Assembly: GCF_008831285.2 (NCBI RefSeq)
Contig: NC_045149.1
Location: 8,026,417-8,090,416 of the forward strand
Direction of reading: 5' to 3'
DNA length: 64,000 bases
Source of the DNA: Nymphaea colorata
Taxonomy: Eukaryota; Streptophyta; Magnoliopsida; Nymphaeales; Nymphaeaceae
Each line of letters starts with the position of its first letter. Positions within the stretch are counted from its first letter, which is position 1. Of this stretch, positions 10,601 to 55,545 are shown piece by piece. A program made the position numbers and the translations under genes. The notes beneath the pieces are model-generated. The model saw nothing but the letters and a program-made list of their open reading frames with translations. It was not told the DNA's origin and ran no database searches.

Positions 10601-11821
10601 GTTCCTTTGTGTACCAGGTTTCTCTTCATGTCCATGAGATAGACAGGACCGCTGTGAGTCATTCTAACATTCAAGTTATCGCAGGATAATTTCATGCTTT
10701 CAAGGATCATAAACAGTGTCCATAATCGATCAGACATTCAAGCAAAAAGCCCTTTTTTTATACAAACAGGATGCCCTGTTGTATATGACTTGTTAACATT
10801 TTAATCTGTGAGTTATTGTGCGCAGTCCGCTCAAAAGGGTTGGAGTGGCAACACCTCTATTGCTTAGTCAGTTGACAATCTACAAGCAAGAATTTTTTTT
10901 TTTCTATAGAAGAAACACCGTCAGACATTGACTGAAAAACAAAAGCAGAAGAAGAAGATAGGAAGAAGAAGAAGATAGAAAGATAAATGAGTTTCCTTAT
11001 TAAAACTGCTTCTTCAGCTTTCCATCAATAATGAGGATTGGAACTCATGGAGCCAGGAATCACATCCCAACTTGATATATATTAGAATAGAAATCTAGAA
11101 AGTAGTAATGAACTAGACCCAAAAAAGAGAAGAGAAAAAGAGAACAGGGAATGATAGGAAAGTGGGTTACCACAAACCAGCCACTGCGAACAGGTATTCA
11201 AAGAGGAATGAAACGGAGGCAGATTCTAGGGGGTTGCGATCAAAACAGGGAAAGCCAGTAAACAGGAATATCAACAGGCCTAAGGCAGAACAGGGGGAGT
11301 AGCCCCAGCAACTCCGCCATCGGAGGGTTTCAGTGCGAAACCACAAGCAGCAGTAAAGGAGAAGCAGAGTGGAAACAGCTGCAAGTCACTAACGACACTA
11401 AACCGAAGCTGAGAAGATGCATTAAAAGAAGAAACGTCCAGCCTAGTTCAGATGAAAGTTGGAATAATATTCCACAACCTTGACGATGATCATGGTGTCC
11501 ATGAAAGCAAAGGAGACATTTTAGACAGTGTATGTGTGAGAGAGAGAGAGAGACCTGAAGGTTGTTCTCCTTGATGTATTGCCAGATCCTCTTCACGGCG
11601 TCGGTGCGAGACGACTCCTGGACGCCCAAGAACCTGCGCATAGCTGGGGAAATGGGAACCACCTTGAAAATGCCGGTGGACCTCGGTTTCTCCGATAAAG
11701 CGGCGGCGCCACCACCAGCGGCTGCAGCCCCTGCAGCCGCTGCAGCCCCTGCAGCCTTGCCCTTACCCTTTGCGGCCACTGCCATCATCGCCACCCTGGT
11801 AGCTCCGAAAACCCTCGACAT
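4701..11821 (-). CDS. Small SWIB/MDM2-domain protein, two exons (130 aa)
   Basis: Exon 1 is 11821-11555 (89 codons) and exon 2 is 4826-4701 (41 codons plus TGA). Exon 1 ends CTTCAG|GTCTCTC and exon 2 follows TATCTGCAG, both phase 0. Residues 1-45 are Ala/Gly/Lys-rich with poly-Ala runs. The SWIB fold starts near residue 52 (VVPISPAMRRFLG) and includes IWQYIKENNLQ at the exon 1 end. Exon 2 continues NPSNKREIRCDEKLKSIFEG and ends FLEVARLMGRHFVKTS. The domain is complete and the length is normal for the small plant SWIB proteins. SWIB domains occur in SWI/SNF-associated factors and in stand-alone small proteins of the nucleus or organelles; the N-terminus could be an organelle-targeting sequence, but this is not certain. 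The intron is unusually long (6728 bp) and full of repeats. No frameshift or stop is seen, so the gene looks functional. Confidence 0.88.
7579..7709. repeat. Paired CT-CA microsatellites
   Basis: Two successive compound arrays, (CT)n-(CA)n at 7579-7614 and again at 7662-7709, are separated by about 47 bp of unique sequence. The same CT-then-CA order occurs in every array unit further right. Confidence 0.9.
8026..8560 (+). pseudogene. Decayed LINE ORF2 C-terminus (zf-RVT region)
   Basis: A plus-strand frame from 8027 reads SVKKLYAALLPLSNDIFPRK and then HRISTQDMLKK, followed by a stop at about 8187. A shift of frame then gives LAGMCSFCQASQEMVPHVFG. This is the zinc-binding (zf-RVT) block seen after the reverse transcriptase of plant LINEs: the FSVKSLY start, the RISTxDxLxxRG core, and a Cys-x2-Cys with a downstream His. 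Later frame pieces to about 8560 look like the usual LINE tail, but less clearly. At least one frameshift and several stops make it non-functional. It lies antisense to the SWIB transcript, inside its intron. Confidence 0.6.
8770..9250. repeat. Two diverged copies of a foldback-like repeat
   Basis: The order of words in 8800-8960 (TATGAGTCATTTGATTAGCTTGATTAATG, then CTTGTACTTTG, then CATGTGTCAT) recurs in 9060-9215 with substitutions. The second copy also carries an inverted pair, CAACTTGATTGATGGTT at about 9080 and AACCATTAATCAAGTTG at about 9197. This suggests an old, MITE-like element present twice in tandem. No target duplication was resolved. Confidence 0.45.
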
Positions 11822-11833
11822 CCTGTCTCTCTC

Positions 11834-11869
<36 letters not shown>

Positions 11870-11915
11870 GTGTCTTGAGTCCTTTCCCGCTCTTCCCCCT
11901 CTCTCTCTCTCTCTC
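11822..11915 (-). promoter_or_regulatory. CT/GA-rich 5' leader of the SWIB gene
   Basis: Two long dinucleotide tracts (11826-11869 and 11902-11914) lie directly upstream of the SWIB start codon. GA/CT-rich leaders and GAGA-type elements are common just upstream of plant start codons. No clear TATA box was found in the next 200 bp, only an AT-rich stretch near 12060. Confidence 0.4.
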
Positions 11916-13329
11916 GGAACAGTGCGAGGGTCTCCGTTTTTCAGGAATGCTTTTCAGTTTGGAACTTACTTTCTGTCAAAATGTCAAGAATGGGACTAAA
12001 TACTGTCAATTTTTCTGATGCAGTGCACCAAAATCCAAATATTCAGAGCAGAATTTTAGTAAATTTATGGGGAATTTTTTTTATTCAATTTTGGCCTTTA
12101 AAGGGAGTTTGTTTCCATTTAACTAGTAATTTCCAATTCATAACATGTAATCCCTTGTTAGGAAGCGTTAAACTAAAGACTTACATTAAAATATAAGTTA
12201 TCTTCATTATCATTCTACTGAAAAAAATAAAATTATTAGTTAAAATATGTTAACCGAATGGGAAGTTGTTCATAAGTCTTGGAGCAGGATGTTGATAAGA
12301 ACGACTTAAAATACCTTTATTAGTTAAATCGAAGATTCCTATCAAATAAAGACAAAAGTTAAAGTTGAAAATTTTTTCATATTATAAATTTACTAAAATA
12401 CGCACCTATAAATAGGTAAGAACATGTCCTGCATAACATGCAGAGTGTCTTCCAAAAAGTTTAGCTGGATTAAGAAATTCAAAAATTTGAAGCTGTTTTT
12501 CGAATTAATATTAAAAAGGACTTCGAAATACTTTTCCTCTACTTTTTTTTTTGGCTTTTTTTTTTTTTTTGCATATTAACGAACTCCGACACTTTCCCCT
12601 TCCTTGTTTCCAAAAATTAGTTTCTTTTCTTCTTCCTCGTCGCCACGGTTCAACGATCTAAAAAACATGGGATTCATGTCGTTGTTTGAATACAACTCGG
12701 TACCCAAGGGAAATAAAACAACTAAAACAACAGCTCAAAAAAACTTCAAAACTACGTTCAAACAATTTATTTCATGTGGGCACTTATCCAAAAACAATTA
12801 CATAATTTCAGTTTCTTTATTATAAAGATTACTTACCAAAAATCACTTTAATTAATAAAGTTATTTTCTAAATATGTGGTAAAAAGAGTATCATCAATAT
12901 CTGCATCAATTGCATGGCATCTTTATTTATCTTTTCAATGAAATATCAATTATCACGGATGCCATTCCATTGTGACCTTTGGGGTAGCGCATGGCACCGG
13001 ACCAAAGGTTCATTATCCTAACACTTAGGTCCATATAGTTCTGCAAGGGGGAAAGAAGTTGGCTCATGCAAGCACGCCTTTCTAATTCATGGTTCAAGTT
13101 CTTGAGGGAAAGTGGGAAATGAATGTTTGGAGATACGCTTATCTTCAGTCATATGATTATCACTTTGCAAAATCCAATATGGCATCACCCATGGTTTCGA
13201 AACTTACCCTCGGCTTTGCTAGGAGCACAGGTTTACCTTATTTATTTATTATGTTAAAAGAAGCAGACTTGGTTCAAGAACCTGTAAAACCCCAAACCCC
13301 ATTGCTAGTAACCTTACTTTGAAGAACTA

Positions 13330-15540: not shown

Positions 15541-18500
15541 ATGGCTGAAAACAATGGCAATTATGCATCATAGTCTGTTACACGAGACACATCTCAAACT
15601 ACAGGTTAGATTTTTCCAGTTCTTCCTATGCCTACAAATTTTTAGTATCTGCTTTCTATTAAGCTTGCATCGAAAAATTATTTGATTTGGAAATCTCAGT
15701 TTACGCCTCTCTTTAAGAGTTATAATCTCATGGGTTTCATAGATGGTAAACAACCATGTCCATTTGAATGGATTGATGATGACAATGGCTTAAAACGTCA
15801 CAATCCAAAATATGATGAATGGTATAGATTAGATCAACTTTTATTAAGTTGGATTCTTTCATCTTTAACTGATCTTGTTCGTAGTCATGTTGTGGGAATT
15901 TCTTCCTCTCATGAATTATGGAACGCCCTCAAGCATATGTATGTTGCTTGCTCAAGAGCTAGAATCCAACAGTTGAAAAACCAACTTCAGAATTTAAGAA
16001 AAGACACCCAAACTATTTCAGAATATTTCTGCAGAGCAAAAAGTACTGCTCACCAATTAGCACTAGCATTCAAACCAATGGATGATGATGATTTGATCAC
16101 ATGTATTATGACTGGTTTACCATCAGGAGAATATGAGTCTCTTAAAACTGCGTTGAACATTAGGATTGATCCTGTTAATATGAAAGACCTGCTTGCTATG
16201 TTGCTTATTCATGAGGTGCAATTGGATGAAGCTGATAATCTCCCTATGGGAACCACATCAGTAAATTTTACTATGAAAAACCAAAATTTTGGTGGCAATC
16301 ACTTTAAGCATAACAGAGGTCGCAATAGAACTCAAGATTGTTCTTCGAAAAATCAGGCTGGGTCTTGTTTTTCTTGTGGAAATAATGGTCATTTTGCTGC
16401 AAATTGCTGGACAGTTTGTCAAGCATGTCGTTAGCCTGGCCACAGTGCCTTGAAGTGCAAAACATATAAAATTCAGAAATTTGATGATGCTCCATCTATT
16501 GAAGCACATACCACTGATGTCTATGAGTCATTTGATCATAGAGGATGGTGCGCTAACTCTAGAGCCACCCATCATGTAATGCCAAATTTCAACAACTTGA
16601 CAATCCAATCCAACTACAATGGAGATCAAGTTCGCATCAGAATGGCTAAGCATCGAAAATAGCTAAGGTTTGAACATTAACCGCATTGGTACCTCTGCTT
16701 TCTCTCATCTTGATTCCAAGTTCATAATGAAAGATATTTTACATGTGCCATCTATCACCAAAAGTCTACTTTCAATACACAAGTTTACAAAAGATAATGA
16801 TGTGTTGCCTGAATTTCACCCGCAATTTTGTTATGTTAAGGATGCCAAGACAGGGCAGGTTCTTCTCAAGGGAAACAATGAACACGGGCTCTACAAGCTG
16901 CACTTGGAAGATATTGGGCGTCAACCAGCAGCTTTACTTGGTGAACGAACTATGCTGCAAAAATGGCATGAGCTACTTGGGCATCCTACCATGAAAACCG
17001 TGCAGCATGTCTTTAGTAAATATGAGCTTCCTTTTAGTTTCAATAAATTTGACTCTTTGTGTGAAACATGTCAAATGAGGAAGAGTCACATTTTTCTTTT
17101 TTCTAGTTCAACTCATGAAATAAATGGACCATTAGATCTTATATTTTTTTATGTTTGGGGCCCTGCACCCATTGCTTCCATGCAAGGATATTATTATCAT
17201 ATTAATTTTGTTGATGGATATTCAAGGTTCACTTGGTTATTTATTATTAAAAAAAAGTATGAAGTTTTGTCTATTTTTCCGAGACTTTTAAAAACTTGTT
17301 GAGAGACAATTTGGGTGACCCATAAAGACCTTTCAAAGTGATTGGGGAGGAGAATATAGATCCTTATCCACTTACTTAAAGTCATGTGGAATTGATTATC
17401 ACATTTCATGTCCTCACACTCATCAACAAAATGGGAGAGTAGAGCGAAAACATTGTCACATAGTAGAGACAGGTCTCACCTTACTTGCTCATGCTCGCCT
17501 TCCCTCAAGTTTTGAGATTTTGCCTTTCTTACAACTGCATTTCTTATTAACCTCCTGGCATCACCTGTTACAAACATGAAAAGTCCATTTCAGCTTCTCT
17601 TTAACCAAACCCCTGACTAAGCCTTTTTTAAAACTTTTAGATGTGTCTGCTACCCTCATCTTCGTCCTTACAATGCTCATAAATTACAATATCAAAGCAC
17701 CAAATGCATATTCCTTGGCTATACCACCACACATAAAAGCTATCTTTGCTTGAATTCTTCCACTTTAAGATTCTATATTTGCCATAACGTCATTTTTGAT
17801 GAGAATGTTTTTCCTTATAAATCCATATCTGCCCTTAAACCTGAGCCGCCATCTTCTTCAATCTCTCCACCAATGGAGATTCCTCTCCCCATTACAACTT
17901 GTCACCCTCACCATCACCACCGTTCATTTCTCTACATGAACTCGCAATTACTGCACAAACACCACCTTCCCCTTCACCACCCTCTCCCCTCACACTATCC
18001 TTACCTAATGAATTGCCTCCTCTAGCCCCCAAAACTCACTCCATGATCACTCGCCTCCAAACCGGATCCCATAAGCTCAACCCCCGTTACATTACTCATC
18101 TTACCGAGTTGCCTTTAGAAATTGAACCCAAAACTTTGACCCAAGCCTCTAAAGTCTCCCATTGGCACAATGCCATGCTTGAGGAATGCAATGCTTTGAT
18201 GAAAAATAAATCTTGGATTCTTGTTCCTCCATCTCCCTCTCACAATATTGTTGGCAATAAATGGGTCTATCGTATTAAGAGAAAAGCTGATGGCAGTATT
18301 GACAGATACAAAGGTCGTCTTGTGGCCAAATGGTACACACAAGAATTTGGCATTGATTATTTTGAAACTTTTAGCCCTGTGATTAAACCCACCACGATAC
18401 GAATTGTTCTTACTCTTGTTGTTTCGCACAATTGGGTGGTTTGCTAGTTAGATGTCAACAATGCTTTCTTATAGGGCACTTTATCTGAAGATGTTTATAT

Positions 18501-19691: not shown

Positions 19692-19962
19692 TATTGAAGA
19701 TAATGCTCAAGGCAAAACTGTTGCCGCTTTTGTTGATGAAAAGATTAGGAAAGAAAATCAGATGCGTAATCAACATTATCGTTAAGATATTGACGCCAAT
19801 CAAGATCCTAAAAATTAGGAAACAGATGGCCCTTGTATTCCTGTATATGTCAATGGAACCCGTCACGCAAATGATTGAGGTGTGAGAGAAATATTTTGAT
19901 CATGGATGTAGACTCATTTCTGAGTCGAACCACATTAAAATCTCTGTGTTTTTTTTCCTTTA
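19692..19962 (+). repeat. Copia 3' LTR
   Basis: Partner of 14654-14949 and directly preceded by the polypurine tract. It ends in TTTCCTTTA, followed by the TCTTT target duplication. Confidence 0.88.
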
Positions 19963-22030
19963 TCTTTTGATGTTCGTGTTTTAATTTCTCACTTATTTTA
20001 TTCTCTCCTCATTTTCAGTTTTTTTAAATTTTTAAAAATTTGCCATATTTTTCCTTTTTTTCAAACTCACTGTATCGTACCCGAGGAAAACCTCACCGTT
20101 TAAAACTTCGACATATTATTTGACTATGGTGAAGACTATGGCTAACCTGTTTAAGCATGAGAAGGTTATGTTTCCATACTGCTGGCCCTTCGAAACAAGC
20201 TCTCACTTTATCAAACCAAGATTTAAAGCTAGAACAGAGCTTAATTCTACTGGCCTAATGGATTCTAAATTCTTGAAGAATATTATTGAGCAGCCAATCT
20301 CCATTCACTTGGCTCAAAGAGGCAGAAGGGACTGGAAACAATTTGGACTACCACTTCCCTGTCATTGATCTCTGGCCATTCACCAGTAAAAACTCCCAGT
20401 TTGAGCCACATCTTACACAAATAAAGGACTGAATCCTTATTTCTCAGCAAGCAAAAATAGTATTCTGAGCATTTTCTCCAAATCAGTTCAGCTTCCGCAG
20501 AGATGCTATTTAGCGTTTTATCAAACATGAACCAATTTCTTGAACTCCATGGGCACCAAATGATAAAATGGAAAGTAACCATCCAACACTTGTTAACCTA
20601 GCCTTTCTTAAACCTGTTAGAAAACCAGACCTTTAATTCAGTAATAAAGTTTCTGTGGGGAATTCTTTTTCTCTGGAACCTCCTAATCACCATTGTCCAC
20701 ACCTTAACTGCTAGAGAGAAAGAGAACAATATGTGCTCAGCATCTTCCTCTTTGCGTTTGCAGATGAAACACCTGTTAGCACAAGAAAAACCTCTGCGTT
20801 TCAGTCTATTTAATGTGGGAAATCTGTCAACAGAGGCTATATACACAAACCAACATGATCTAGGGAGGCAATCCTTACACCAGACCCATTCACGCCACTT
20901 TTCAGCAGGAAATTTCATTCTAACCATATTCCATGCATCACCAAAGCTAATTTGCTCAACAGATTTTAGGTCCATCCGTAAGATATCCCTTCCCTCTTGC
21001 AGCATAAGTCTTTTAACGTTGTGCTGTTTCAAGAATTCTTTATATGTAGGAAGTAAGATTAAATCATAATGAAGAACTTCTGCAACAACAAGCTTCAAAC
21101 TTCCTTCAAATAAAGCAAATTTCCTTTTCTACAAGGTATGAGTGGCAGCAAATTGATGACCAGCGATCCTTCCAGAATTTAATGTCGCCTGCAGCTATTT
21201 CCCATTTCACATAGCCATTAATTTTCGACCATCCCCATCTCACAACTTTAAAAAACCAAGAAGCTTTCTTAACTCCCTTCATAGACCAGAGGCTGTGATA
21301 ATAATAATATGTCTTTCTAACGAATCTAGCCCACCAGTCATTTGAACAGCACACTTCCAAAGGCTAGCTTAGCTAGACAAGCTCTATTCATAGTTTTAAT
21401 ACCATTAGTTTAATGGAACGATGTCTTCATGAAGAAACTCTCTGTTGCGTTTGAATGGGAAGTTCCAATTGACACAGACTATTCCCCTCCACCATTCAGA
21501 TATCCACTTAACCACATCCAATTGTAACAAAAGTAAGGGATCTTCTGAAAAAAAAAAAACACTAGCTAGAGGGATGTGATTTTCATGTCTACAAATCTAT
21601 AATAATAGACTAGATTGATGGAGGACTTTTAAAAGTTTTGTAGAATTTGTTAAGGATTTCACACACACACACAATGGTGAGGTCCTTGAACAAGGGCACT
21701 TACAAACACCAAGGGGAGGTCTTTCTATTCCTTTGATTGTACATTTCTCATCATGTTATGTGGCTACAAATGTAGTTCTCCAGTGGCTCCTTTGTCATCA
21801 ACAGATGAAGGAAGTGTTATGTATATGTTAATCCAACACGAAACAGGAAATTTTCTGTTTGCATTTTTATCATTAATAGTACCCTCCATGTTAACCATAC
21901 AAAATTCGTAGGTTGGTAAGTTTTTTTATGGTCGAGGAGAGAGTCAAATTTCATTCCGGTGGAAGAATATTCAGTGAAAAAATCACCATTAATAAACATC
22001 AGTAACTTCATTAGCTTCATTTGATCAACA
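19963..22030. repeat. Diverged partial copy of the array unit (3' half)
   Basis: Collinear with U1 from about 31720 to 33230. Shared landmarks are the T-rich stretch, GACTATGGCTAACCTGTTTA, the minus-strand LINE fragment, the TTTAATACCATTAGTTTAATG motif, a CA tract, ATGGTGAGGTCCTTGAACAA and TGTTATGTATATGTTA. It keeps LINE sequence (about 20970-21190) that all five array units have lost, so it represents an older state. Its right end (21905-22005) matches the DNA right of the array (59340-59415). Confidence 0.85.
20283..21360 (-). pseudogene. LINE ORF2 C-terminal fragment (zf-RVT), longest copy
   Basis: Minus-strand frames read NDWWARFVRKTYYYYHSLWS and IKFWKDRWSSI (21360-21106). After a frameshift they give EKWREWVWCKDCLPRSCW, RLKRRGFSCANRCFICKRKE and EDAEHILFSFSLAVKVWTMV (21098-20598). 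A TAG follows, where the array units have Trp, and then a further tail in the same frame to 20283. The CX2C...H pattern and flanking Trp/Arg wording are those of the zinc-binding region after plant LINE reverse transcriptases. The polymerase domain itself is absent, so this is a 3' remnant. Confidence 0.8.
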
Positions 22031-22153: not shown

Positions 22154-23059
22154 TCCATGCAAACCCTCCAACAGTCAACGCTCCCAGCCGGTGCACTAAA
22201 ATCCATAGGGTTGGCACCCTCTTCCATTATTCCCCCGCGAAGGATTCCTCCAACCACTCCATGAAGCATTTTACACAAAGGTGCCTCCCTTTCAGTAGAA
22301 TGATAGAACACCGATCGATCTCCAGAGGTTTTCTCAATCAACCCTTTAATCCAAGCAGGCAGTTTAAATAAGAAATCTGCTGTCGGAATCGGCGTCCCGA
22401 TACTCCATCCCCTCGACCAGTGAAATTAGTTACAGAGCAAGAAGCAAAATGTGCCACCCAGGGAAATGGGGAAAAAAAGGAAGTGTTTGAAGGCTTTAAG
22501 CTTGAAATTTACTGTACAAAGATAAAGAGGGGAAAAGAAACCCTAAACTCCAAGTGCCGGAAAAGCACCAAAAAGGAGATGGAGCTGGCAGATGTTCACC
22601 AAAACCCTAAACCCTAAACTCCGGCGAACATCTCCCAGCTCCATCTCCTTTTTGGTGCTTTTCCAGCACTTAGGGTTTAGGGTTTCTTTTCCCCACTTTA
22701 TCTTTGCACAGTAAATATCAAGCTTAAAGCCTTCAAACAGGTCCTTTTTTCCCCTATTTCCTTGGGTGGCACACTTTCCTTCTTGCTCTGTAACTAATTT
22801 CATTGATCGAGGGGATGAAGTATCGGGACGCAGATTCGGACAGCAGATTACTTATTTAAACTGCGTGCTTGGATTAAAGGGTTGATTGAGAAAACCTCTG
22901 GAGATCGATCGGTGTTCTATCATTCTACTGAAAGGGAGGCACCTTCATGTAAAATGTGGTTGGAGGAATCCTTTGCGGGGGAATAATGGAAGAGGGTGCC
23001 AACCCCATGGATTTAAGTGCACCGGCTGGGAGCGTCTACTGTTGGAGGGTTTGCATGGA
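22154..23059. repeat. Long inverted repeat of an unrecognised gene fragment
   Basis: Left arm 22154-22600, loop 22601-22622, right arm 22623-23059. By eye the arms match at roughly nine bases in ten; a 12-nt gap in the right arm near 22955 is the largest difference. Both arms encode the same peptides outward from the centre, including CATQGN, FEGFKL and KSTKKEMEL, and then SGDRSVFYHSTEREAP, GGILRGGIMEEGANPMDFSA and CWRVCM. The last frame is open and protein-like, but I do not recognise the family. A start-like MEYRDADSDSRFLI (MKYRDADSDSRLLI in the right arm) is interrupted by a stop in both arms. The loop and arm bases carry CCCTAAA telomere-like words. A transcript through it would fold into a hairpin of about 440 bp. 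Confidence 0.92.
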
Positions 23060-26720: not shown

Positions 26721-27240
26721 TGTGAGTGGAGTAACTTCTGAAAAGGAAAAGAATTTAGTTTGTATAAATGTTCACCGCAGCAACGTCGGATTCACCGCCA
26801 AAAGATTACTTGCAAAACCTAATGAAGTAACCAACTAAACCACTGAATCAAATTTGGTTTGCCAATGGTCTATTCAAAAGGACTCAGTTAAGTTTCCTTT
26901 TTGTAACATTAATTAAAGATAAAGAATATTTAAAAATTTCAAGTTTGTGTTGACAAAAGGTTGTATAGCACACACAAACATCTACCCATAATCCAGACAT
27001 TGTAATAGCTCCTAACAATGTATGGACTATTATGAAAAAGACTGATTGCTATCACCTATTGCATTATAAAGAGCTATTCCAGTTATCAAGTAGAACTTCA
27101 TCTAGGTTAGGTTTAGGACTCGAGTCCCCCAAGATAAAGGGCCAGAAATTCCATATAGTTGGCATAGTTTGTGGGGTTCTCCTAGCTTGGCAATTTGTAT
27201 GCACTATTGTGATTCTCTCTCTCTCTCTCTCTCTCTTTCT

Positions 27241-27326
<86 letters not shown>

Positions 27327-27544: not shown

Positions 27545-28611
27545 GCTTCTGCACAAGCAATTGGGAAGTCCAAGCTTAAGAAGGTGAAGAAGCCCATTGT
27601 TCCCAAGGAGAGCAAAATGAAGAAGTTTTTCAATTCCGCATATAAGCGTTACCAAAACTCCCTCTCATCCTTCCTACTAATTAAGAGGTAAGTGGATTCC
27701 AATCTCCAATTTCGAATAATTTCATTGAATGTAGTCTGTTTATGTTTGTCTACCTCTTTTGTCTGTGGTTCATTTCATTGGGCTTTGGTTGATTTGTTTG
27801 TGTTCGTGTACTCTTTTGAGCATTGTTAGAAATATCATTCTTGGAAAATTTTGGTGAGGTTTTTCTTGGTTATTTGTAGGCAAATTAAGTTGTTCTTATC
27901 GGGAAAATCTTAACAATTTTTTTTAAAATTCAAAAACAATAAAAATAAAAAACCTTAAAAAAATTCAAAAATTAAAAAAAAATTATAACCTTGAATACGA
28001 TAAATTTGAAAGATTTTTTTTTTTTGGGTTTATTCGATTTTCTCGTAACTATTGTGAGATTTTTGAAAGTATCATGGTATAAGTGACAATGTATCTAATA
28101 TCTTGTTTTACATTTGTTTTACTGTTTTTTTGTCAGTTTTAGGGGGCCATTTATTCTAATCGCACAAAATAAACCTTTTAATACTAAAAAACGAGGAAGA
28201 TAAGTTCAAATAAGTTGATTTAAAGAGAAAAGCGAGCAAAAAGATGAACAAATTAAAAACCACAAGAACAAGTTGAAGCAGAAAAATGGGTCCCTAAAGC
28301 TGGCATGATAGAGAAACATATGTAAAGCAAGCGATTGGCATGTCAAGGGGCTACCACAAATGGAAACAAATCAACAGTACCGAATAACATGAACCACAGA
28401 CAAACGAGGTAGGCAAAGATAACGACAAACTACATCCAACGAAATGATTCGAAACTAAAGATTGGGATCAGCCTCATAGTAGGAAGGGTGAGATGGAGGA
28501 ACTTTGGAGCCCCTAGATGCAGAAGCCTTCTACAACTTGGTCTCCTTAGTTGTGGTGGGCTTCTTCACCTTCTCAACCATGGATTTCTCCACTGCTTTCT
28601 TGTGCAGGAGC
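27545..28611. repeat. IR-A of U1: inverted repeat of a linker-histone H1-like gene start
   Basis: Left arm 27545-27810 (plus), spacer 27811-28351, right arm 28352-28611 (complement). The arms share GAGAAGGTGAAGAAGCCCA-type sequence, a CATCCTTCCTAC block, a TTTCGAAT block and TTGTCTGTGGTTCAT. On the right arm the minus strand reads KKAVEKSMVEKVKKPTTTKE and, after a TAG, KASASRGSKVPPSHPSYYEA. This resembles the basic N-terminus of plant histone H1 running into the SHPxYxEM start of its globular domain. The left arm has a 49-codon frame from ATG 27542 that ends at AGG TAA, within an AG|GTAAGT splice-donor-like site. The arms continue into matching intron-like DNA, so genomic DNA rather than cDNA was captured. 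H1 identity is tentative; the inverted repeat is clear. Confidence 0.7.
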
Positions 28612-28908
28612 AGGATTGGCAGCAGGAGGGATGATTTCTTGTGCAGGAGCAGGATTGGCAGCAGGAGGGATGACAACAGAAAAAATGAAGTTGGACTTAA
28701 AGAGCAGATCTTTTTTTCCTGAATCCAGTCTGCATGTAAACAAAGTTTGTCTCTGTTTAATGTGCATGCATGAGAAAAGTTTGCGAAGGTAACATGCGAT
28801 AGAGCATAGTCATACGGAGGACTAAAAAAGCATATATTATATACATATTGAAGTTGTTCATGACATGTAGCTATACATATTATATACATGTATAAACATC
28901 GTTGTGTA

Positions 28909-29444
28909 GATGTACAGATCTCAAGTGCGCATAGCGATCATCACTGATACAGAATCCTTCCAAACAAACCTAGGAAATATGATTTCTGCTTTTACTTTCC
29001 ACATGATTCCAGCTGTCCACTTTCTCTATTGTGTATCCACAGGAAAAGCAATTCTTCATTTGTTCCTTTTCCAATCCACCATTCTTTCAGTCATCTATCT
29101 ATCTGGGTCCTGCTTGGACTCTTGGTATTGCTCTTATGTCATGAAAATATGAGATTCTATGTGGCACTTGGTGCATATTTTACTGAACATGCTCCATATA
29201 GAATTTCATCCTTTCTTGATGTGTGAGCAATACAAAGAGTCCAAGGAGGACCCAGATAGAACACTGAAAGCATGGCAAGAAGGAAAGAAACATATGAAGC
29301 ACTGCGTAGCCTGTGGATACACAATAGAGAAGGTGGATAGATGTAATCATGTGGAATGCAAATGCGGAAATCACATCTCATGGGTTTGTTTGGAAGGTTT
29401 CACTACCAGTGACGATTGCTAGGCATACTTGAGATCTGCACATC
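28909..29444. repeat. IR-B of U1: hairpin built from an RBR RING2/IBR exon
   Basis: Left arm 28909-29164, loop 29165-29193, right arm 29194-29444; about four bases in five pair by eye. One 22-nt stretch is perfectly paired (29022-29043 with 29310-29331). The right arm on the plus strand (frame 29159-29422) reads CEQYKESKEDPDRTLKAWQE and MKHCVACGYTIEKVDRCNHV, then ECKCGNHISWVCLEGF. This is a RING2/IBR zinc-binding sequence closest in wording to the C-terminus of plant DEAH11/12-type helicase-RBR proteins. The frame stops at TAG after TTSDDC. The left arm is the same exon in antisense. A transcript would form a long, almost loopless hairpin targeting the parent gene family. Function is inferred; no expression is visible from sequence. 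Confidence 0.88.
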
Positions 29445-31962
29445 CTGCAGGATGATGTTTATGCATGTGTATAATATGACCAAGTTTAATATGTATAAAA
29501 TATTTGCTTCTTCCTTCCTTCATATGGTTGCACACTATCTGCATGTTACCTTTCCTATGTTGTTCAGTTTTATACTTGTCCGGAATGATTCCGTGGTTCA
29601 TTGGCCGAGTGCGTTTTGGTGAATGCGGATGTTTGAATTATGCATAGAAAGTATATTTAGGATAAGACAATTTGGGGATTGCCCCACAAGAACTTTTTTT
29701 ATTGCATATGAAGTATTGCTAGGATTGGTCAATTTAGGGGTTGCCACACTTTTTTATTTAGTTACATGCTATTTTGCATGTTGTTTTTGATTTTTGGCAT
29801 TATTTTTGTGGATAATATATAATTGACATTGTTCATCCTGAAACTTACACTTCTATGCCTCGGTTGGCTTCACGTTGCTTCATAGGTTTCACTTTGCCTC
29901 ATTGCATCTAACAACCTTGCCTGTGCTGCACTTGGATATGTTGTTGCCTGGAGGCATCCGGAATGAGGGGGTGTTTGGATCTCCTTTTGGTGATCGATCC
30001 TTATCTGCCAAGGCCAATATCAGCAATGACAAGTTGTTTGTAGATTGCCACTGCATGGGGGAGGAGGCAGGGGGATAGAGTAATGTGTATGCATACAATA
30101 GGAAGAAGGTCATGTCGATCTATATAGACAAAGTTGAGACACTACACGCTGCAACTCTTGTCAACCGATATGGATATTGGTCTTACTCGAAACAATGGAG
30201 GTTAAATTTCCTTGCATTGTCAAATAATTTTATGAGGAGTTATGGGTGGCCAGCTAGCTGGATTATATTTACGGCGATATCAGATGCTAAATCAATAACT
30301 TTCTAAATGGTTATATTTAAACATAAATGCATATAAACATACTTTCCTAATTTTTTTTCCTTGTAATCTTTAGTTTCCCAGTTTATATTTCACCTAGTTA
30401 AATGGAGATATCGTTCCTTGATTTTCCAATAGAGTTTGATTGAGAACAGGAGACAAAGGAGAGATTACTAGTGTCGAGGAGAGAAGGTTGGGTAATTTCC
30501 TTTTCCTTTCAATTTTAAAATTATAGGGTTCTAGCTTCCAAATTAACTTTTAGAAATTTCTATTATATTCCACATTATTTGCTATTTTTTATAGCAACAT
30601 TTTTATTTTAGATTTTTCAGCTTTGGAAACCTTTAGCACATTAGGACACATCCATTCTTTCGTCAACCCATACAGTCAGCCTGAGGGGTGTTTGATAATA
30701 GCGTTTGTACTTCAAAAATGAGTACAATCATGAAACACTGCATTCCAAGGAACACAACTTTCACCTGGGGGACTTGCAATCCCAACCATCAAACACATTC
30801 CAAAATAAAAAAGCTAACCTATTGGTTGTTAATGCTATCAGAATTGGCCTGAGCCAACTCATTCAAATCGAATCAGTGGCTTAACCAAACCAATCGGATT
30901 CCATGTGTCACGTTTCAACCAGTTTTCAACTAATAATTTTTCACATAAAATTCCGTTTACTTTTTAATACTTTGGCTGATTTGCAACCAAATTAATCGTT
31001 TGAATGACAAATCAGAGCAGCCTCGCCAATGTGATTCCTGATCCGATTTTTACTTAGTTTAATGGAATAATGTCTTGAAGACACTCTCGGTGACGTTTTA
31101 TTTAGTAGTTCCAGTCGAGAAAGGATGTTGCCCTCCATTATTCTGACAATCCCTTAAGAACATCTTAATTTTTAAGAAGCAAGTACTTAATCTTTACAAT
31201 TGTAAGAGGTCTTAAGAACTAGCAAGAGTCTGAATTTCATGACTGCAAATTTAATAAGCAATTATAATAATCCATTTTATTCTATTAGCAGTAAAAAAAA
31301 TAGAGTTGTTGTTATTTAAATATTAAAATCCTATTTATACATTAAGGGGGGATTTTTAAACTTGTTTCTCTAATTTGATAAAGATTTCACATTTATACAA
31401 TTAGTTTTATAATGTTTTAAAATTTAGAGGGTAAAACTAATTTTCGTGAAATTTGAAGTTGCTCTCATGAAAAGTTAACATTTTTCTTGAGAAATCTCTG
31501 TTCCTTGTGTTGGCCTTAGGGGGACCTTAACAGCCTGCCTGGGCCATTGGATAAGTCAAGAAAGGAGCCATACACTCGAGATCACCAAACTTTCATACAG
31601 TTTTTGAGCAGAGGAAATTTTTGGGTCGTTAATGATCCTAATAATACAGTTTTAGTTATTTAATGCCAAACTGTTTTTTTTTTTCATTTTTATTTTTTAT
31701 TTGTTGCAAATCTACATATATTTTGATGTTTGTGTTATTAATTTCTCACTTATTTTATTTTTTTCTCATTTTTAATTTTTAAATTTTTTAAAGATTTACG
31801 TTTTTTTCATTTTTTTCAAACTCACCGTATTATACCCAAGAAAAACCTCGCCGTTTAAAACCCCGGCATATTATTTGTGACTATGGGACTCAAGACTATG
31901 GCTAACCTGTTTAAGCATGCGAAGGAGATGTTTCCATACCGCTCGCCCTTCCAAACAAGCTC

Positions 31963-32703
31963 TCACTTTACCCAACCAAGATTTAGGGCTGAATCCTTAT
32001 TTCTCAGTAAGCAAAAATAATACTCAGAACACTTTCTCCAAATCAGTTGAGCCTCAGCAGAGATACTATTTAGTGTTTTATTAAACGTGAACCTATTTCT
32101 TGAACTCCACGGACACCTAATGATAATATGGAAAGTAACGATCCAAAACATGTTAACCCAGCCGCGATTAAACCTGCTAGAAAACCAGGCCTTTAATTCA
32201 GTAATAAAGTTTCTGTGTGGAATTCTTTTCCTCTTGAATCTCCTAATCACCATTGTCCACACCTTAACTGCTAGAGAGAAAGAGAACAATATGTGCTCAG
32301 CATCTTCCTCTTTGCGTTTGCAGATGAAACACCTCTTACCACAAGAAAAACCTCTGCGTTTCAGTATATTTGATGTGGGAAATCTGTCAGCAGAGGCTAT
32401 ATAGGGAGGCAATCCTTATACGAGACCCATTCATGCCATTTTTCAGCAGGAAATTTCATTCCTATGTCACATGAGTGTGGGGTGCGGGTGCTGGAGCGTT
32501 ACTGAGGCTGCTTTCAGTTCCACATTGCCATGAATTTTCGACCATCCCCATCTGACACCTTTAAAAAACCAAGAACCATTCTTAGCTCCCTTCATAGACC
32601 AAAGGCTGTGATAATAAAGACATGTCTTTCCAACGAATCTAGCCCACCAGTCATTTGAACAGCACACTTCCAAGGCTACTTTAGCCAGACAAGCTCTATT
32701 CAT
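31963..32703 (-). pseudogene. LINE zf-RVT remnant in U1
   Basis: Minus-strand frames ARFVGKTCLYYHSLWSMKGA (32703-32467) and ILKRRGFSCGKRCFICKRKE with EDAEHILFSFSLAVKVWTMV (32412-31963). About 220 bp present in the 20283-21360 copy is replaced here by a short unrelated stretch (about 32466-32515), shared by all units. It reads FSCGKRC, as does U3, against FSCAKRC in U2, U4 and U5. Confidence 0.8.
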
Positions 32704-35180: not shown

Positions 35181-35438
35181 AGGATTGGCAGCAGGAGGGA
35201 TGACAACAGAAAAAATGAAGTTGGACTTAAAGAGCAGATCTTTTTTTCCTGAATCCAGTCTGCATGTAAACAAAGTTTGTCTCTGTTTAATGTGCATGCA
35301 TGAGAAAAGTTTGCGAAGGTAACATGCGATAGAGCATAGTCATACGGAGGACTAAAAAAGCATATATTATATACATATTGAAGTTGTTCATGACATGTAG
35401 CTATACATATTATATACATGTATAAACATCGTTGTGTT

Positions 35439-35974
35439 GATGTACAGATCTCAAGTGCACATAGCGATCATCACTGATACAGAATCCTTCCAAACAAAGC
35501 TAGGAAATATGATTTCTGCTTTTACTTTCCACATGATTCCAGCTGTCCACCTTCTCTATTGTGTATCCACAGGCAAAGCAATTCTTCATTTGTTCCTTTT
35601 CCAATCCTCCATTCTTTCAGTTATCTATCTATCTGGGTCCTGCTTGGACTCTTGGTATTGCTCTTATGTCATGAAAATATGAGATTCTATGTGGGACTTG
35701 GTGCATATTTTACTGAACATGCTCCATATAGAATTTCATCCTTTCATGATGTGTGAGCAATACAAAGAGTCCAAGGAGGACCCAGATAGAACACTGAAAG
35801 CATGGCAAGAAGGAAAGAAACATATGAAGCACTGCGTAGCCTGTGGATACACAATAGAGAAGGTGGATAGATGTAATCATGTGGAATGCAAATGCGGAAA
35901 TCAAATCTCTTGGGTTTGTTTGGAAGGTTTAACTACCAGTGACGATTGCTAGGCATACTTGAGATCTGCACATC
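35439..35974. repeat. IR-B of U2 (RING2 hairpin)
   Basis: Same 536-nt size as U1. It has the best pairing of the five: a perfect 29-nt duplex (35546-35574 with 35839-35867). The right-arm zinc ligands are intact, with CKCGNQISWVCLEGL at the end. Confidence 0.88.
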
Positions 35975-38489
35975 CTGCAGGATGATGTTTATGCATGTGT
36001 ATAATATGACCAAGTTTAATATGTATAAAATATTTGCTTCTTCCTTCCTTCATATGGTTGCATACTATCTGCATGTTACCTTTCCTATGTTGTTCAGTTT
36101 TATACTTGTCCGGAATGATTCCGTGGTTCATTGGCCGAGTGCGTTTTGGTGAATGCGGATGTTTGAATTATGCATAGAAAGTATATTTAGGATAAGACAA
36201 TTTGGGGATTGCCCCACAAGAACTTTTTTTATTGCATATGAAGTATTGCTAGGATTGGTCAATTTAGGGGTTGCCACACTTTTTATTTAGTTACATGCTA
36301 TTTTGCATGTTGTTTTTGGTTTTTGGCATTATTTTTGTGGATAATATATAATTGACATTGTTCATCCTGAAACTTACACTTCTATGCCTCGGTTGGCTTC
36401 ACGTTGCTTCATAGGTTCCACTTTGCCTCATTGCATCTAACAACCTTGCCTGTGCTGCACTTGGATATGTTGTTGCCTGGAGGCATCCGGAATGAGGGGG
36501 TCTTTGGATCTCCTTTTGGTGATCGATCCTTATCTGCCAAGGCCAATATCAGCAATGACAAGTTGTTTGTAGATTGCCACTGCATGGGGGAGGAGGCAGG
36601 GGGATAGAGTAATGTGTATGCATACAATAGGAAGAAGGTCATGTCGATCTATATAGACAAAGTTGAGACACTACACGCTGCAACTCTTGTCAACCGATAT
36701 GGATATTGGTCTTACTCGAAACAATGGAGGTTAAATTTCCTTGCATTGTCAAATAATTTTATGAGGAGTGATGGGTGGCCAGCTAGCTGGATTATATTGA
36801 CGGTGATATCAGATGCTAAATCAAAAACTTTCTAAATGGTTATATTTAAACATAAATGCATGTAAACGTACTTTCCTAATTTTTTTCCTTGTAATCTCTA
36901 GTTTCCCAGTTTATATTTCACATAGTTAAATGGAGATATCGTTCCTTGATTTTCCAATAGAGTTTGATTGAGAACAGGAGACAAAGGAGAGATTACTAGT
37001 GTCGAGGAGAGAAAGTTGGGTAATTTCCTTTTCCTTTCAATTTTAAAATTATAGGGTTCTAGCTTCCAAATTAACTTTTAGAAATTTCTATTATATTCCA
37101 CATTATTTGCTATTTTTTATAGCAACATTTTTATTTTAGATTTTTCAGCTTTGGAAACCTTTAGCACATTAGGACACATCCATTCTTTCGTCAACCCATA
37201 CAGTCAGCCTGAGGGGTGTTTGATAATAGCGTTTGTACTTCAAAAATGAGTACAATCATGAAACACTGCATTCCAAGGAACACAACTTTCACCTGGGGGA
37301 CTTGCAATCCCAACCATCAAACACATTCCAAAATAAAAAAGCTAACCTATTGGTTGTTAATGCTATCAGAATTGGCCTGAGCCAACTCATTCAAATCGAA
37401 TCAGTGGCTTAACCAAACCAATCGGATTCCATGTGTCACGTTTCAACCAGTTTTCAACTAATAATTTTTCACATAAAATTCCGTTTACTTTTTAATACTT
37501 TGGCTGATTTGCAACCAAATTAATCGTTTGAATGACAAATCAGAGCAGCCTCGCCAATGTGATTCCTGATCCGATTTTTACTTAGTTTAATGGAATAATG
37601 TCTTGAAGCACTCTCGGTGACGTTTTATTTAGTAGTTCCAGTCGAGAAAGGATGTTGCCCTCCATTATTCTGACAATCCCTTAAGAACATCTTAATTTTT
37701 AAGAAGCAAGTACTTAATCTTTACAATTGTAAGAGGTCTTAAGAACTAGCAAGAGTCTGAATTTCATGACTGCAAATTTAATAAGCAATTATAATAATCC
37801 ATTTTATTCTATTAGCAGTAAAAAAAATAGAGTTGTTGTTATTTAAATATTAAAATCCTATTTATACATTAAGGGGGGATTTTTAAACTTGTTTCTCTAA
37901 TTTGATAAAGATTTCACATTTATACAATTAGTTTTATAATGTTTTAAAATTTAGAGGGTAAAACTAATTTTCGTGAAATTTGAAGTTGCTCTCATGAAAA
38001 GTTAACATTTTTCTTGAGAAATCTCTGTTCCTTGTGTTGGCCTTAGGGGGACCTTAACAGCCTGCCTGGGCCATTGGATAAGTCAAGAAAGGAGCCATAC
38101 ACTCGAGATCACCAAACTTTCATACAGTTTTTGAGCAGAGGAAATTTTTGGGTCGTTAATGATCCTAATAATACAGTTTTAGTTATTTAATGCCAAACTG
38201 TTTTTTTTTTTCATTTTTATTTTTTATTTGTTGCAAATCTACATATATTTTGATGTTTGTGTTATTAATTTCTCACTTATTTTATTTTTTTCTCATTTTT
38301 AATTTTTAAATTTTTTAAAGATTTACGTTTTTTTCATTTTTTTCAAACTCACCGTATTATACCCAAGAAAAACCTCGCCATTTAAAACCCCGGCATATTA
38401 TTTGTGACTATGGGACTCAAGACTATGGCTAACCTGTTTAAGCATGCGAAGGTGATGTTTCCATACCGCTCGCCCTTCCAAACAAGCTC

Positions 38490-41704: not shown

Positions 41705-41962
41705 AGGATTGGCAGCAGGAGGGATGACAACAGAAAAAATGAAGTTGGACTTAAAGAGCAGATCTTTTTTTCCTGAATCCAGTCTGCATGTAAACAAAGT
41801 TTGTCTCTGTTTAATGTGCATGCATGAGAAAAGTTTGCGAAGGTAACATGCGATAGAGCATAGTCATACGGAGGACTAAAAAAGCATATATTATATACAT
41901 ATTGAAGTTGTTCATGAATTGTAGCTATACATATTATATACATGTATAAACATCGTTGTGTA

Positions 41963-42498
41963 GATGTACAGATCTCAAGTGCGCATAGCGATCATCACTG
42001 ATACAGAATCCTTCCAAACAAACCTAGGAAATATGATTTCTGCTTTTACTTTCCACATGATTCCAGCTGTCCACTTTCTCTATTGTGTATCCACAGGCAA
42101 AGCAATTCTTCATTTGTTCCTTTTCCAATCCACCATTCTTTCAGTTATCTATCTATCTGGGTCCTGCTTGGACTCTTGGTATTGCTCTTATGTCATGAAA
42201 ATATGAGATTCTATGTGGCACTTGGTGCATATTTTACTGAACATGCTCCATATAGAATTTCATCCTTTCATGATGTGTGAGCAATACAAAGAGTCCAAGG
42301 AGGACCCAGATAGAACACTGAAATCATGGCAAGAAGGAAAGAAACATATGAAGCACTACGTAGCCTGTGGATACACAATAGAGAAGGTGGATAGATGTAA
42401 TCATGTGGAATGGAAATGCAGAAATCACATCTCTTGGGTTTATTTGGAAGGTTTCACTACCAGTGACGATTGCTAGGCATACTTGAGATCTGCACATC
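41963..42498. repeat. IR-B of U3 (RING2 hairpin, zinc ligands lost)
   Basis: The 536-nt hairpin architecture is kept, with a 23-nt perfect core. In the right-arm frame three zinc-binding Cys are replaced (KHYVACG, VEWKCRN and WVYLEG for KHCVACG, VECKCGN and WVCLEG), so no folded RING2 domain could be made. Confidence 0.88.
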
Positions 42499-45013
42499 CT
42501 GCAGGATGATGTTTATGCATGTGTATAATATGACCAAGTTTAATATGTATAAAATATTTGCTTCTTCCTTCCTTCATATGGTTGCATACTATCTGCATGT
42601 TACCTTTCCTATGTTGTTCAGTTTTATACTTGTCCGGAATGATTCCGTGGTTCATTGGCCGAGTGCGTTTTGGTGAATGCGGATGTTTGAATTATGCATA
42701 GAAAGTATATTTAGGATAAGACAATTTGGGGATTGCCCCACAAGAACTTTTTTTATTGCATATGAAGTATTGCTAGGATTGGTCAATTTAGGGGTTGCCA
42801 CACTTTTTATTTAGTTACATGCTATTTTGCATGTTGTTTTTGGTTTTTGGCAATATTTTTGTGGATAATATATAATTGACATTGTTCATCCTGAAACTTA
42901 CACTTCTATGCCTCGGTTGGCTTCACCTTGCTTCATAGGTTTCACTTTGCCTCATTGCATCTAACAACCTTGCCTGTGCTGCACTTGGATATGTTGTTGC
43001 CTGGAGGCAGAGGGAATGAGGGGGTCTTTGGATCTCCTTTTGGTGATCAATCCTTATCTGCCAAGGCCAATATCAGCAATGACAAGTTGTTTGTAGATTG
43101 CCACTGCATGGGGGAGGAGGCAGGGGGATAGAGTAATGCGTATGCATACAATAGGAAGAAGGTCATGTCGATCTATATAGACAAAGTTGAGACACTACAC
43201 GCTGCAACTCTTGTCAACCGATATGGATATTGGTCTTACTCGAAACAATGGAGGTTAAATTTCCTTGCATTGTCAAATAATTTTATGAGGAGTGATGGGT
43301 GGCCAGCTAGCTGGATTATATTGACGGTGATATCAGATGCTAAATCAATAACTTTCTAAATGGTTATATTTAAACATAAATGCATGTAAACGTACTTTCC
43401 TAATTTTTTTTCCTTGTAATCTTTAGTTTCCCAGTTCATATTTCTCCTTGTTAAATGGAGATATCGTTCCTTGATTTTCCAATAGAGTTTGATTGAGAAC
43501 AGGAGACAAAGGAGAGATTACTAGTGTCGAGGAGAGAAAGTTGGGTAATTTCCTTTTCCTTTCAATTTTAAAATTATAGGGTTCTAGCTTCCAAATTAAC
43601 TTTTAGAAATTTCTATTATATTCCAAATTATTTGCTATTTTTTATAGCAACATTTTTATTTTAGATTTTTCAGCTTTGGAAACCTTTAGCACATTAGGAC
43701 ACATCCATTCTTTCGTCAACCCATACAGTCAGCCTGAGGGGTGTTTGATAATGGCGTTTGTACATCAAAAATGAGTACAATCATGAAACACTGCATTCCA
43801 AGGAACACAACTTTCACCTGGGGGACTTGCAATCCCAACCATCAAACACATTCCAAAATAAAAAAGCTAACCTATTGGTTGTTAATGCTAACAGAATTGG
43901 CCTGAGCCAACTCATTCAAATCGAATCAGTGGCTTAACCAAACCAATCGGATTCCATGTGTCACATTTCAACCAGTTTTCAACTAATAATTTTTCACATA
44001 AAATTCCGTTTACTTTTTAATACTTTGGCTGATTTGCAACCAAATTAATCGCTTGAATGACAAATCAGAGCAGCCTCGCCAATGTGATTCCTGATCCGAT
44101 TTTTACTTAGTTTAATGGAATAATGTCTTGAAGACACTCTCGGTGACGTTTTATTTAGTAGTTCCAGTCGAGAAAGGATGTTGCCCTCCATTATTCTGAC
44201 AATCCCTTAAGAACATCTTAATTTTTAAGAAGCAAGTACTTAATCTTTACAATTGTAAGAGGTCTTAAGAACTAGCAAGAGTCTGAATTTCATGACTGCA
44301 AATTTAATAAGCAATTATAATAATCCATTTTATTCTATTAGCAGTAAAAAAAATAGAGTTGTTGTTATTTAAATATTAAAATCCTATTTATACATTAAGG
44401 GGGGATTTTTAAACTTGTTTCTCTAATTTGATAAAGATTTCACATTTATACAATTAGTTTTATAATGTTTTAAAATTTACAGGGTAAAACTAATTTTCGT
44501 GAAATTTGAAGTTGCTCTCATGAAAAGTTAACATTTTTCTTGAGAAATCTCTGTTCCTTGTGTTGGCCTTAGGGGACCTTAACAGCCTGCCTGGGCCATT
44601 GGATAAGTCAAGAAAGGAGCCATACACTCGAGATCACCAAACTTTCATACAGTTTTTGAGCAGAGGAAATTTTTGGGTCGTTAATGATCCTAATAATACA
44701 GTTTTAGTTATTTAATGCCAAACTGTTTTTTTTTTTTCATTTTTATTTTTTATTTGTTGCAAATCTACATATATTTTGATGTTTGTGTTATTAATTTCTC
44801 ACTTATTTTATTTTTTTCTCATTTTTAATTTTTAAATTTTTAAAGATTTACGTTTTTTCATTTTTTTCAAACTCACCGTATTATACCCAAGAAAAACCTC
44901 GCCGTTTAAAACCCCGGCATATTATTTGTGACTATGGGACTCAAGACTATGGCTAACCTGTTTAAGCATGCGAAGGTGATGTTTCCATACCGCTCGCCCT
45001 TCCAAACAAGCTC

Positions 45014-48227: not shown

Positions 48228-48485
48228 AGGATTGGCAGCAGGAGGGATGACAACAGAAAAAATGAAGTTGGACTTAAAGAGCAGATCTTTTTTTCCTGAA
48301 TCCAGTCTGCATGTAAACAAAGTTTGTCTCTGTTTAATGTGCATGCATGAGAAAAGTTTGCGAAGGTAACATGCGATAGAGCATAGTCATACGGAGGACT
48401 AAAAAAGCATATATTATATACATATTGAAGTTGTTCATGACATGTAGCTATACATATTATATACATGTATAAACATCGTTGTGTA

Positions 48486-49021
48486 GATGTACAGATCTCA
48501 AGTGCGCATAGCGATCATCACTGATACAGAATCCTTCCAAACAAACCTAGGAAATATGATTTCTGCTTTTACTTTCCACATGATTCCAGCTGTCCACTTT
48601 CTCTATTGTGTATCCACAGGCAAAGCAATTCTTCATTTGTTCCTTTTCCAATCCACCATTCTTTCAGTTATCTATCTATCTGGGTCCTGCTTGGACTCTT
48701 GGTATTGCTCTTATGTCATGAAAATATGAGATTCTATGTGGCACTTGGTGCATATTTTACTGAACATGCTCCATATAGAATTTCATCCTTTCATGATGTG
48801 TGAGCAATACAAAGAGTCCAAGGAGGACCCAGATAGAACACTGAAATCATGGCAAGAAGGAAAGAAACATATGAAGCACTACGTAGCCTGTGGATACACA
48901 ATAGAGAAGGTGGATAGATGTAATCATGTGGAATGGAAATGCAGAAATCACATCTCTTGGGTTTATTTGGAAGGTTTCACTACCAGTGACGATTGCTAGG
49001 CATACTTGAGATCTGCACATC
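48486..49021. repeat. IR-B of U4 (RING2 hairpin, zinc ligands lost)
   Basis: Carries the same Cys-to-Tyr/Trp changes as U3 in the right-arm frame, with the hairpin length unchanged at 536 nt. Confidence 0.88.
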
Positions 49022-54752: not shown

Positions 54753-55010
54753 AGGATTGGCAGCAGGAGGGATGACAACAGAAAAAATGAAGTTGGACTT
54801 AAAGAGCAGATCTTTTTTTCCTGAATCCAGTCTGCATGTAAACAAAGTTTGTCTCTGTTTAATGTGCATGCATGAGAAAAGTTTGCGAAGGTAACATGCG
54901 ATAGAGCATAGTCATACGGAGGACTAAAAAAGCATATATTATATACATATTGAAGTTGTTCATGACATGTAGCTATACATATTATATACATGTATAAACA
55001 TCGTTGTGTA

Positions 55011-55545
55011 GATGTACAGATCTCAAGTGCGCATAGCGATCATCACTGATACAGAATCCTTCCAAACAAACCTAGGAAATATGATTTCTGCTTTTACTTT
55101 CCACATGATTCCAGCTGTCCACTTCTCTATTGTGTATCCACAGGCAAAGCAATTCTTCATTTGTTCCTTTTCCAATCCACCATTCTTTCAGTTATCTATC
55201 TATCTGGGTCCTGCTTGGACTCTTGGTATTGCTCTTATGTCATGAAAATATGAGATTCTATGTGGCACTTGGTGCATATTTTACTGAACATGCTCCATAT
55301 AGAATTTCATCCTTTCATGATGTGTGAGCAATACAAAGAGTCCAAGGAGGACCCAGATAGAACACTGAAAGCATGGCAAGAAGGAAAGAAACATATGAAG
55401 CACTGCGTAGCCTGTGGATACACAATAGAGAAGGTGGATAGATGTAATCATGTGGAATGCAAATGCAGAAATCACATCTCTTGGGTTTGTTTGGAAGGTT
55501 TCACTACCAGTGACGATTGCTAGGCATACTTGAGATCTGCACATC
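55011..55545. repeat. IR-B of U5 (RING2 hairpin)
   Basis: 535 nt; one base shorter than the others because of a deletion in the left arm (CCACTTCTCTATTG). Right-arm Cys ligands are present as in U1/U2, but Gly is changed to Arg (ECKCRNH). Confidence 0.88.

Follow-up and report, generated by a model that had tools for sequence, protein, structure and literature searches.

The RING2 inverted repeat in the 64-kb window (the whole stretch of DNA analyzed, C12:8026417-8090416) is likely to be a decaying, neutral inverted pseudogene repeat, made of two broken copies of the 3' end of a DEAH11-type gene placed head to head. If transcribed, it would give rise to hairpin siRNAs, some of which would match the DEAH11 mRNA perfectly. 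Both the hairpin and an intact parent gene do exist; a functional reading of the locus is unproven on what the DNA alone can tell.

The first copy of the repeat, U1, spans 28786-29552, a total of 767 nt, with arms of 379 and 359 nt that align over 382 columns at 75.7% identity (Table 1). A first-pass annotation of this DNA had described a sense RING2 piece facing its own antisense copy across a 29-nt loop, and our alignment confirmed that arrangement. The same annotation gave arms of about 250 nt, at 28909-29444. This interval proved to be the better-matched core, with outer 161-nt blocks that are 82% complementary, but the full repeat is longer. The outer ends of U1 form a 12-bp perfect match (AAGGTAACATGC), and parental homology of the right copy extends to ~29588. 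The spacer is not foreign, as its minus strand continues into parental coding sequence. The first bases of the right arm are CCA; this trinucleotide is present in the parent at both break positions, giving 3 bp of microhomology where the two copies meet (both as judged by eye).

Folding of the transcript, which had been proposed as a check, gave -409.8 kcal/mol for U1 compared to -188.4 +/- 7.3 kcal/mol for 20 dinucleotide shuffles (z -30). For the longest perfect duplex, the lengths given earlier (22 nt for U1, 29 nt for U2) were confirmed, and they stand well against a maximum of 11 nt over 100 mononucleotide shuffles of the arms. Searched alone, the fragment scored 16.9 bits against Pfam IBR_1, under the 27-bit cut-off, and Pfam searches of the six frames of unit 1 reported a LINE zf-RVT domain alone and not the RING2 piece. 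Against solved structures the fragment matched RNF216 (E 0.0011). The identity of the fragment rests on the parent gene on C10. A search of the 64-kb window against Rfam returned no matches at gathering thresholds.

Among the 51 protein matches listed, a lower bound, the sole strong match outside C12 is at C10:4858538-4858756 (77% identical), with weak matches elsewhere on C79 (33%) and C494 (38%). The C10 match lies within a 420-codon open frame (C10:4857530-4858789) that carries the KH_DEAH11, IBR and RING families of Pfam. Upstream of it, a frame of 1078 codons contains helicase, RBD_DEAH11 and RRM_DEAH11 domains; the open frames of the parent are 333, 1078 and 420 aa long. Based on the DEAH11-specific domains and the open frames, we conclude that the C10 parent is an intact-looking DEAH11-type helicase/RBR gene. 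Both hairpin arms align to this gene over most of their length, and C10:4858648-4858668 is the site complementary to 29022-29042. Thus the DEAH11-specific Pfam domains bear out the source proposed beforehand, a DEAH11/12-type gene. The first-pass annotation had also named the lack of an intact matching parent as a result that would count against it, and such a parent is present on C10. Its plural, parent genes, does not hold, since a single clear parent is seen on C10 (the search counts being lower bounds). A literature search for DEAH11 together with RBR or miRNA returned best matches among which the word DEAH11 was absent.

Copies of the hairpin were counted from 43 matches of a search of the 407.8-Mb assembly (783 contigs), and the counts are lower bounds. 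The search identified at least 20 hairpin copies, five in the window and 15 outside of it, all on C12, where they form two clusters (8.05-8.26 and 13.48-13.69 Mb) ~5 Mb apart. Both arms are present in 19 copies, which are the hairpins covered by our alignments; the other copy, L014, is a remnant with its centre missing and was left out. At four loci (L013, L015, L016 and L017) the first hairpin is accompanied by another, diverged one at a distance of 1.2-1.3 kb. These four second hairpins are referred to as the H2 class and the other 15 as the H1 class, labels that are unrelated to histone H1. The longest duplexes in the four H2-class copies are shorter, at 15-20 nt. Within the window, the four further copies reported earlier were located as U2-U5, and the units of the tandem array that they share with U1 display pairwise identities of 99.0-99.9% (ungapped columns). 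Unit 1 carries a 39-nt tandem duplication at 28593-28670, where units 2-5 are ~40 bases shorter. Upstream of the array, diverged partial unit copies that are 85-90% identical occupy 19961-21897 and 26941-27280, and a LINE zf-RVT domain lies within them at 20601-21128.

Table 1. Features of the inverted repeats, the unit block and the array; positions refer to the window except in the last line, where they refer to locus L011.
Feature	Position	Strand	Description
Tandem array	27435-59324	.	5 units of ~6.52 kb, the last partial; both inverted repeats in each
IR-A sense arm	27545-27799	+	fragment of histone H1 (exon 1, intron 1); L022 on C1 is the nearest gene
IR-A antisense arm	28364-28611	-	homology to C1 H1 gene covers ~28147-28707
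U1 left arm	28786-29164	-	antisense broken copy of DEAH11 last exon and 3' region
22-nt perfect duplex	29022-29043	+	partner at 29310-29331; perfect complementarity to the parent mRNA
U1 spacer	29165-29193	-	29 nt, DEAH11 parental sequence, continuous with left-arm copy
U1 right arm	29194-29552	+	sense copy, DEAH11 RING2 codons and 3' region
C5-matching stretch	30327-31510	+	~87% identical to DNA between two CoA_binding exons on C5
LINE remnant	31966-32415	-	zf-RVT domain, inside unit
U2 hairpin copy	35316-36082	.	29-nt perfect duplex
U3 hairpin copy	41840-42606	.	
U4 hairpin copy	48363-49129	.	
U5 hairpin copy	54888-55653	.	
L011 hairpins with facing deletions	4926-5671 and 8040-8718		12 nt in left arm, 9 nt in right arm

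The second inverted repeat of the unit, IR-A, has arms that are 73% identical over 266 columns. The nearest gene is at C1:17152549-17152867 (73%), in a locus that carries PF00538. IR-A retains intron 1 of the H1 gene, and therefore that piece was copied as DNA. A match on C9 (C9:8275690-8275764, 85% over 75 nt) was considered as the parent of IR-A and rejected, since it is an intronless H1 fragment whereas IR-A carries intron 1; the C1 gene thus stays the nearest parent. The intronless fragment on C9 (L039 2568-2771) has exon 1 joined to a later exon and is probably a retrocopy, and it lies near open frames that by eye resemble a copia retrotransposon. IR-A was also rejected as a second silencing hairpin: its longest identity is 11-15 nt to the C1 H1 gene and 10-16 nt to the C9 fragment, runs so short that poor targeting of H1 is expected. 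Within the IR-A spacer, 27821-28017 belongs to a dispersed repeat that has matches across many contigs.

The C5-matching stretch either was taken from C5 or is a repeat common to both places, and the surrounding 29600-31660 shows weak matches also on C4 and elsewhere. We take the C5 gene with the CoA_binding exons to be succinyl-CoA ligase alpha. Since its pieces match genes on three other chromosomes, the unit block is a mosaic. At 30753-30760 the window units hold an 8-bp sequence once, while several other C12 copies and C5 carry an insert of ~430-440 bp with the 8-bp repeat (CACAACTT) on either side, as at L012 5930-9490 and L019 3486-3950. The insert is presumably a hAT-type-like element. 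Because C5 also has it, the window units may have lost the insert precisely.

Elsewhere in the window, a second palindrome of ~900 nt (22154-23059) is 89.6% identical to its own reverse complement; its three plus-strand frames gave no Pfam match at E 0.05. A SWIB domain at 11330-11953 on the minus strand probably marks an exon of a host gene, and 15646-18447 contains broken open frames that resemble a Ty1/copia retrotransposon by eye.

The order of events was approached through differences from the parent on parent-anchored coding columns. Ten sites differ from the parent identically in the consensuses of all four arm classes, while 14 differences are private to the two left-arm classes and 3 to the two right-arm classes. 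Among the ten shared changes are Cys to Ser in HICWVC and Gly to Arg in DGCNH. Both affect conserved positions of the RBR RING2 domain, and on that basis these two changes were assigned to the fragment side, although some of the ten may have arisen on the branch of the parent. From the shared differences we infer that the fragment was probably already broken, with loss of a RING2 cysteine, before the head-to-head duplication. In the tree, the left arms of both classes cluster together (support 0.999) and the right arms likewise (0.910), and thus the inversion preceded the duplication from which the H1 and H2 classes arose. The left arm's excess of early changes (14 vs 3) goes beyond simple neutrality, and the right copy was perhaps constrained for a time.

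As CCA occurs at both parental breaks, the simplest account of the junction is one head-to-head event at a 3-bp microhomology. We propose that a piece of a DEAH11-type gene (the last ~90 codons plus 3' flank) would have been copied into C12 and would have lost its coding function. Head-to-head duplication would then have followed, probably by foldback or template switch at the 3-bp CCA, a mechanism that we infer from the junction, with the 29-nt parental spacer left in place. Subsequently the block, including the H1 fragment and the piece matching a C5 intron, would have multiplied along C12 through segmental and tandem duplications, the five-unit array being the latest step.

What the hairpin could do if transcribed depends on how closely it matches the parent. 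U1 contains 21-mers perfectly complementary to the C10 parent, 12 on the plus strand and 13 on the minus strand. All 13 copies scored (of the 19) hold some such 21-mers on at least one strand, and the longest runs identical to the parent reach 30-31 nt in U1 and U2. A transcript across the hairpin, if made, would fold into an imperfect dsRNA of ~370 bp, and DCL2/3/4-type Dicers would cut this stem into siRNAs of 21-24 nt, whose main effect would be to silence the array itself. Such feeding of Dicers is expected from what is known of IR71 (PMC12825306) and of pseudogene siRNAs (PMC2708354). Either transcribed strand would give antisense siRNAs, some of them perfect to the DEAH11 mRNA. Regulation of DEAH11 by the hairpin is not supported by the results described here.

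According to the criteria of Axtell and Meyers (2018), as given in PMC13299409, a MIRNA foldback is at most 300 nt long and its 21-22-nt duplex has fewer than six mismatches without large loops. The duplex of U1 is within these bounds, being perfect over 22 nt, and 12 of the 19 hairpins have the perfect 21-mer in both arms; the foldback, at 767 nt, is far above the length limit. Like a proto-MIRNA, the locus has two arms that resemble the target beyond the miRNA, and an intact target with a complementary site exists (C10:4857530-4858789, perfect 21-mers). The first-pass annotation had offered an siRNA or proto-MIRNA locus. Given a foldback longer than 300 nt, a hairpin able to give siRNAs if transcribed fits better than a proto-MIRNA. 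PMC2708354 defines inverted-pseudogene hairpins by two paralogous pseudogenes that lie on opposite strands no more than 2 kb apart, with a stem >100 bp and a loop <2 kb. U1 has this geometry, and the locus belongs to this known kind, the inverted pseudogene hairpin. Among the titles returned by a literature search on Nymphaea colorata small RNA and miRNA, none concerned this locus, and the term small RNA does not occur in the main text of the assembly paper (PMC7015852).

The repeats could also act in cis only. On this putative account heterochromatic repeats would produce 24-nt siRNAs via RDR2/DCL3 and methylate themselves, and the hairpin geometry would be incidental. The repeated, mosaic and C12-clustered nature of the DNA agrees with such a role, as does the size distribution reported for rice (PMC2708354), where 24-nt molecules make up 53.4% of pseudogene antisense siRNAs. 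We hold self-silencing of this kind to be a serious possibility, somewhat short of an even chance. It is compatible with neutral decay of an inverted pseudogene repeat, and the confidence placed in one does not detract from the other.

A working trans-acting locus, in which hairpin siRNAs or a proto-miRNA at 29022-29043 would down-regulate DEAH11, appears unlikely. The perfect 21-mers to the one intact parent found, together with the 30-31-nt identical runs in U1 and U2, speak for it, as do the location of the most conserved arm window and the number of copies (20). This 21-nt window starts at 29022 and coincides with the 22-nt duplex, with only 1 of 21 columns variable in 19 copies, a young-MIRNA-like pattern that also counts against neutrality. 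Column shuffles gave P values of 0.01 for both arms, 0.001-0.002 for the left arm and 0.24-0.25 for the right arm; a parsimony scan gave 0.026 for the left arm, 0.62 for the right arm and 0.05 for both. An 18-nt invariant run in the arms had P 0.0036. Within the H1 or H2 class alone, conservation of the window was not significant (P 0.46-0.84). As a control, an unpaired flank (29560-29930, 19 copies) was subjected to an equal test and passed it with P 0.0028, and therefore the window signal is not specific to the hairpin. Variable sites are more strongly clustered in the left arm (variance/mean 3.73) than they are in the flank (1.64), so that the flank control takes away much, but not all, of the weight of local conservation. 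Of the 19 hairpins, 17 keep the 21-mer intact in the left arm and 12 keep it in both arms, and a constrained, miRNA-like window may yet be present.

Pairing between the arms provides a second line of evidence. The arms have diverged independently. For the 15 H1-class hairpins, left-right divergence is 0.1989 within a copy and 0.1999 across copies, and for the four H2-class hairpins 0.2523 and 0.2566 (homologous columns, means only). Between classes, the left H1/right H2 divergence is 0.228 and the converse 0.221, about the expectation for independent decay (means only). Covariation was absent over 308 pairs, with 3 changed on both sides compared to 2.3 +/- 1.0 in shuffles and a score of 0.030 in each. 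Paired cells amounted to 96.6% versus 96.5% in shuffles; that just 17 of 500 shuffles were as high counts against purely neutral decay, small as the difference is. An arm permutation on the U1 structure resulted in P values of 0.17-0.25 for the H1 class, 0.08-0.12 for the H2 class and 0.004 for a mixed set of 9. We ascribe the last value to the structure having been drawn from U1. Since such a structure favours arms of the same class, arm means were compared structure-free, and the excess was nearly gone. Facing deletions in the hairpins L011a and L011b were considered as compensatory and rejected; their lengths are unequal, and each is flanked by short direct repeats of its own (by eye), and they are therefore taken as chance. 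Overall, the alignments give no clear sign that pairing is kept up by selection. Against a trans-acting locus, then, stand the lack of a within-copy pairing excess on homologous columns and of covariation, the unpaired flank that passes the equal conservation test, a duplex retained in both arms of only 12 of 19 hairpins, the 15-20-nt duplexes of the H2 class and a foldback of 767 nt. We regard as quite improbable the more specific proposal that a locus of ~20 copies on one chromosome doses trans-acting siRNAs, centred on the 22-nt duplex of RING2 codons, against the single DEAH11 helicase/ubiquitin-ligase gene, as a lineage-specific proto-MIRNA intermediate between long-hairpin siRNA and miRNA that would have started from an already broken fragment.

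The 12-bp perfect ends and the many copies could suggest a foldback transposable element or MITE with a captured exon. However, these ends can be aligned to 3' sequence of the parent itself, the right copy continues as parental sequence to ~29588, and the 20 copies found are all on C12, most of them in shared surroundings. Terminal repeats of its own with a target-site duplication, the mark of a TIR or foldback element, are lacking at U1, the one copy inspected by eye for the duplication, and we consider such an element very improbable. Arrays in long-read assemblies are prone to misassembly, but a false inversion or collapsed array is barely credible here, given arms that are ~24% different and clusters ~5 Mb apart that share the junction while each has its own differences.

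An inverted pseudogene repeat of this kind shows in readable form the material that may give rise to hairpin-siRNA and MIRNA genes in plants. Here a single parent is clear, the junction can be read, and the ~20 copies differ in age, which makes them suitable for testing selection. In addition, the lack of clear upkeep of pairing, together with an unpaired flank that passes the conservation scan, calls for caution in inferring function from a hairpin alone.

The origin of MIRNA genes by inverted duplication reportedly goes back to Allen et al. 2004. This origin is described in PMC3237417 and cited in PMC12825306. As in that model, a fragment of a target gene is present twice, head to head, and the resemblance extends along the whole arms. 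In contrast to the model, the foldback here exceeds 300 nt, the fragment was probably broken before the inversion, and no clear constraint was detected. The Arabidopsis IR71 locus (PMC12825306) is similar in that a long foldback is an expected DCL2/3/4 substrate if transcribed. IR71 is transcribed as a dsRNA of ~3 kb and its siRNAs are proven, whereas the arms here are host-gene fragments read from sequence alone. Maize Mu killer (PMC2563033) is likewise an inverted partial gene duplication, of a kind that could silence its parent in trans. Mu killer is a perfect 2.4-kb hairpin with a proven effect against a transposon, while the stem described here is imperfect and looks neutral.

The closest precedent is a pair of adjacent, inverted paralogous pseudogenes in rice, which form a 185-nt duplex with a 1,283-nt loop to which small RNAs were mapped (PMC2708354). 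Many small RNAs were found at the rice hairpin and, reportedly, none were detected at the parent. Both loci have two pseudogene copies on opposite strands within 2 kb, a stem >100 bp, a loop <2 kb and a parent elsewhere. Compared with the rice pair, the Nymphaea colorata locus, known from its DNA, has a longer stem (~370 bp), a much shorter loop (29 nt) and ~20 copies.
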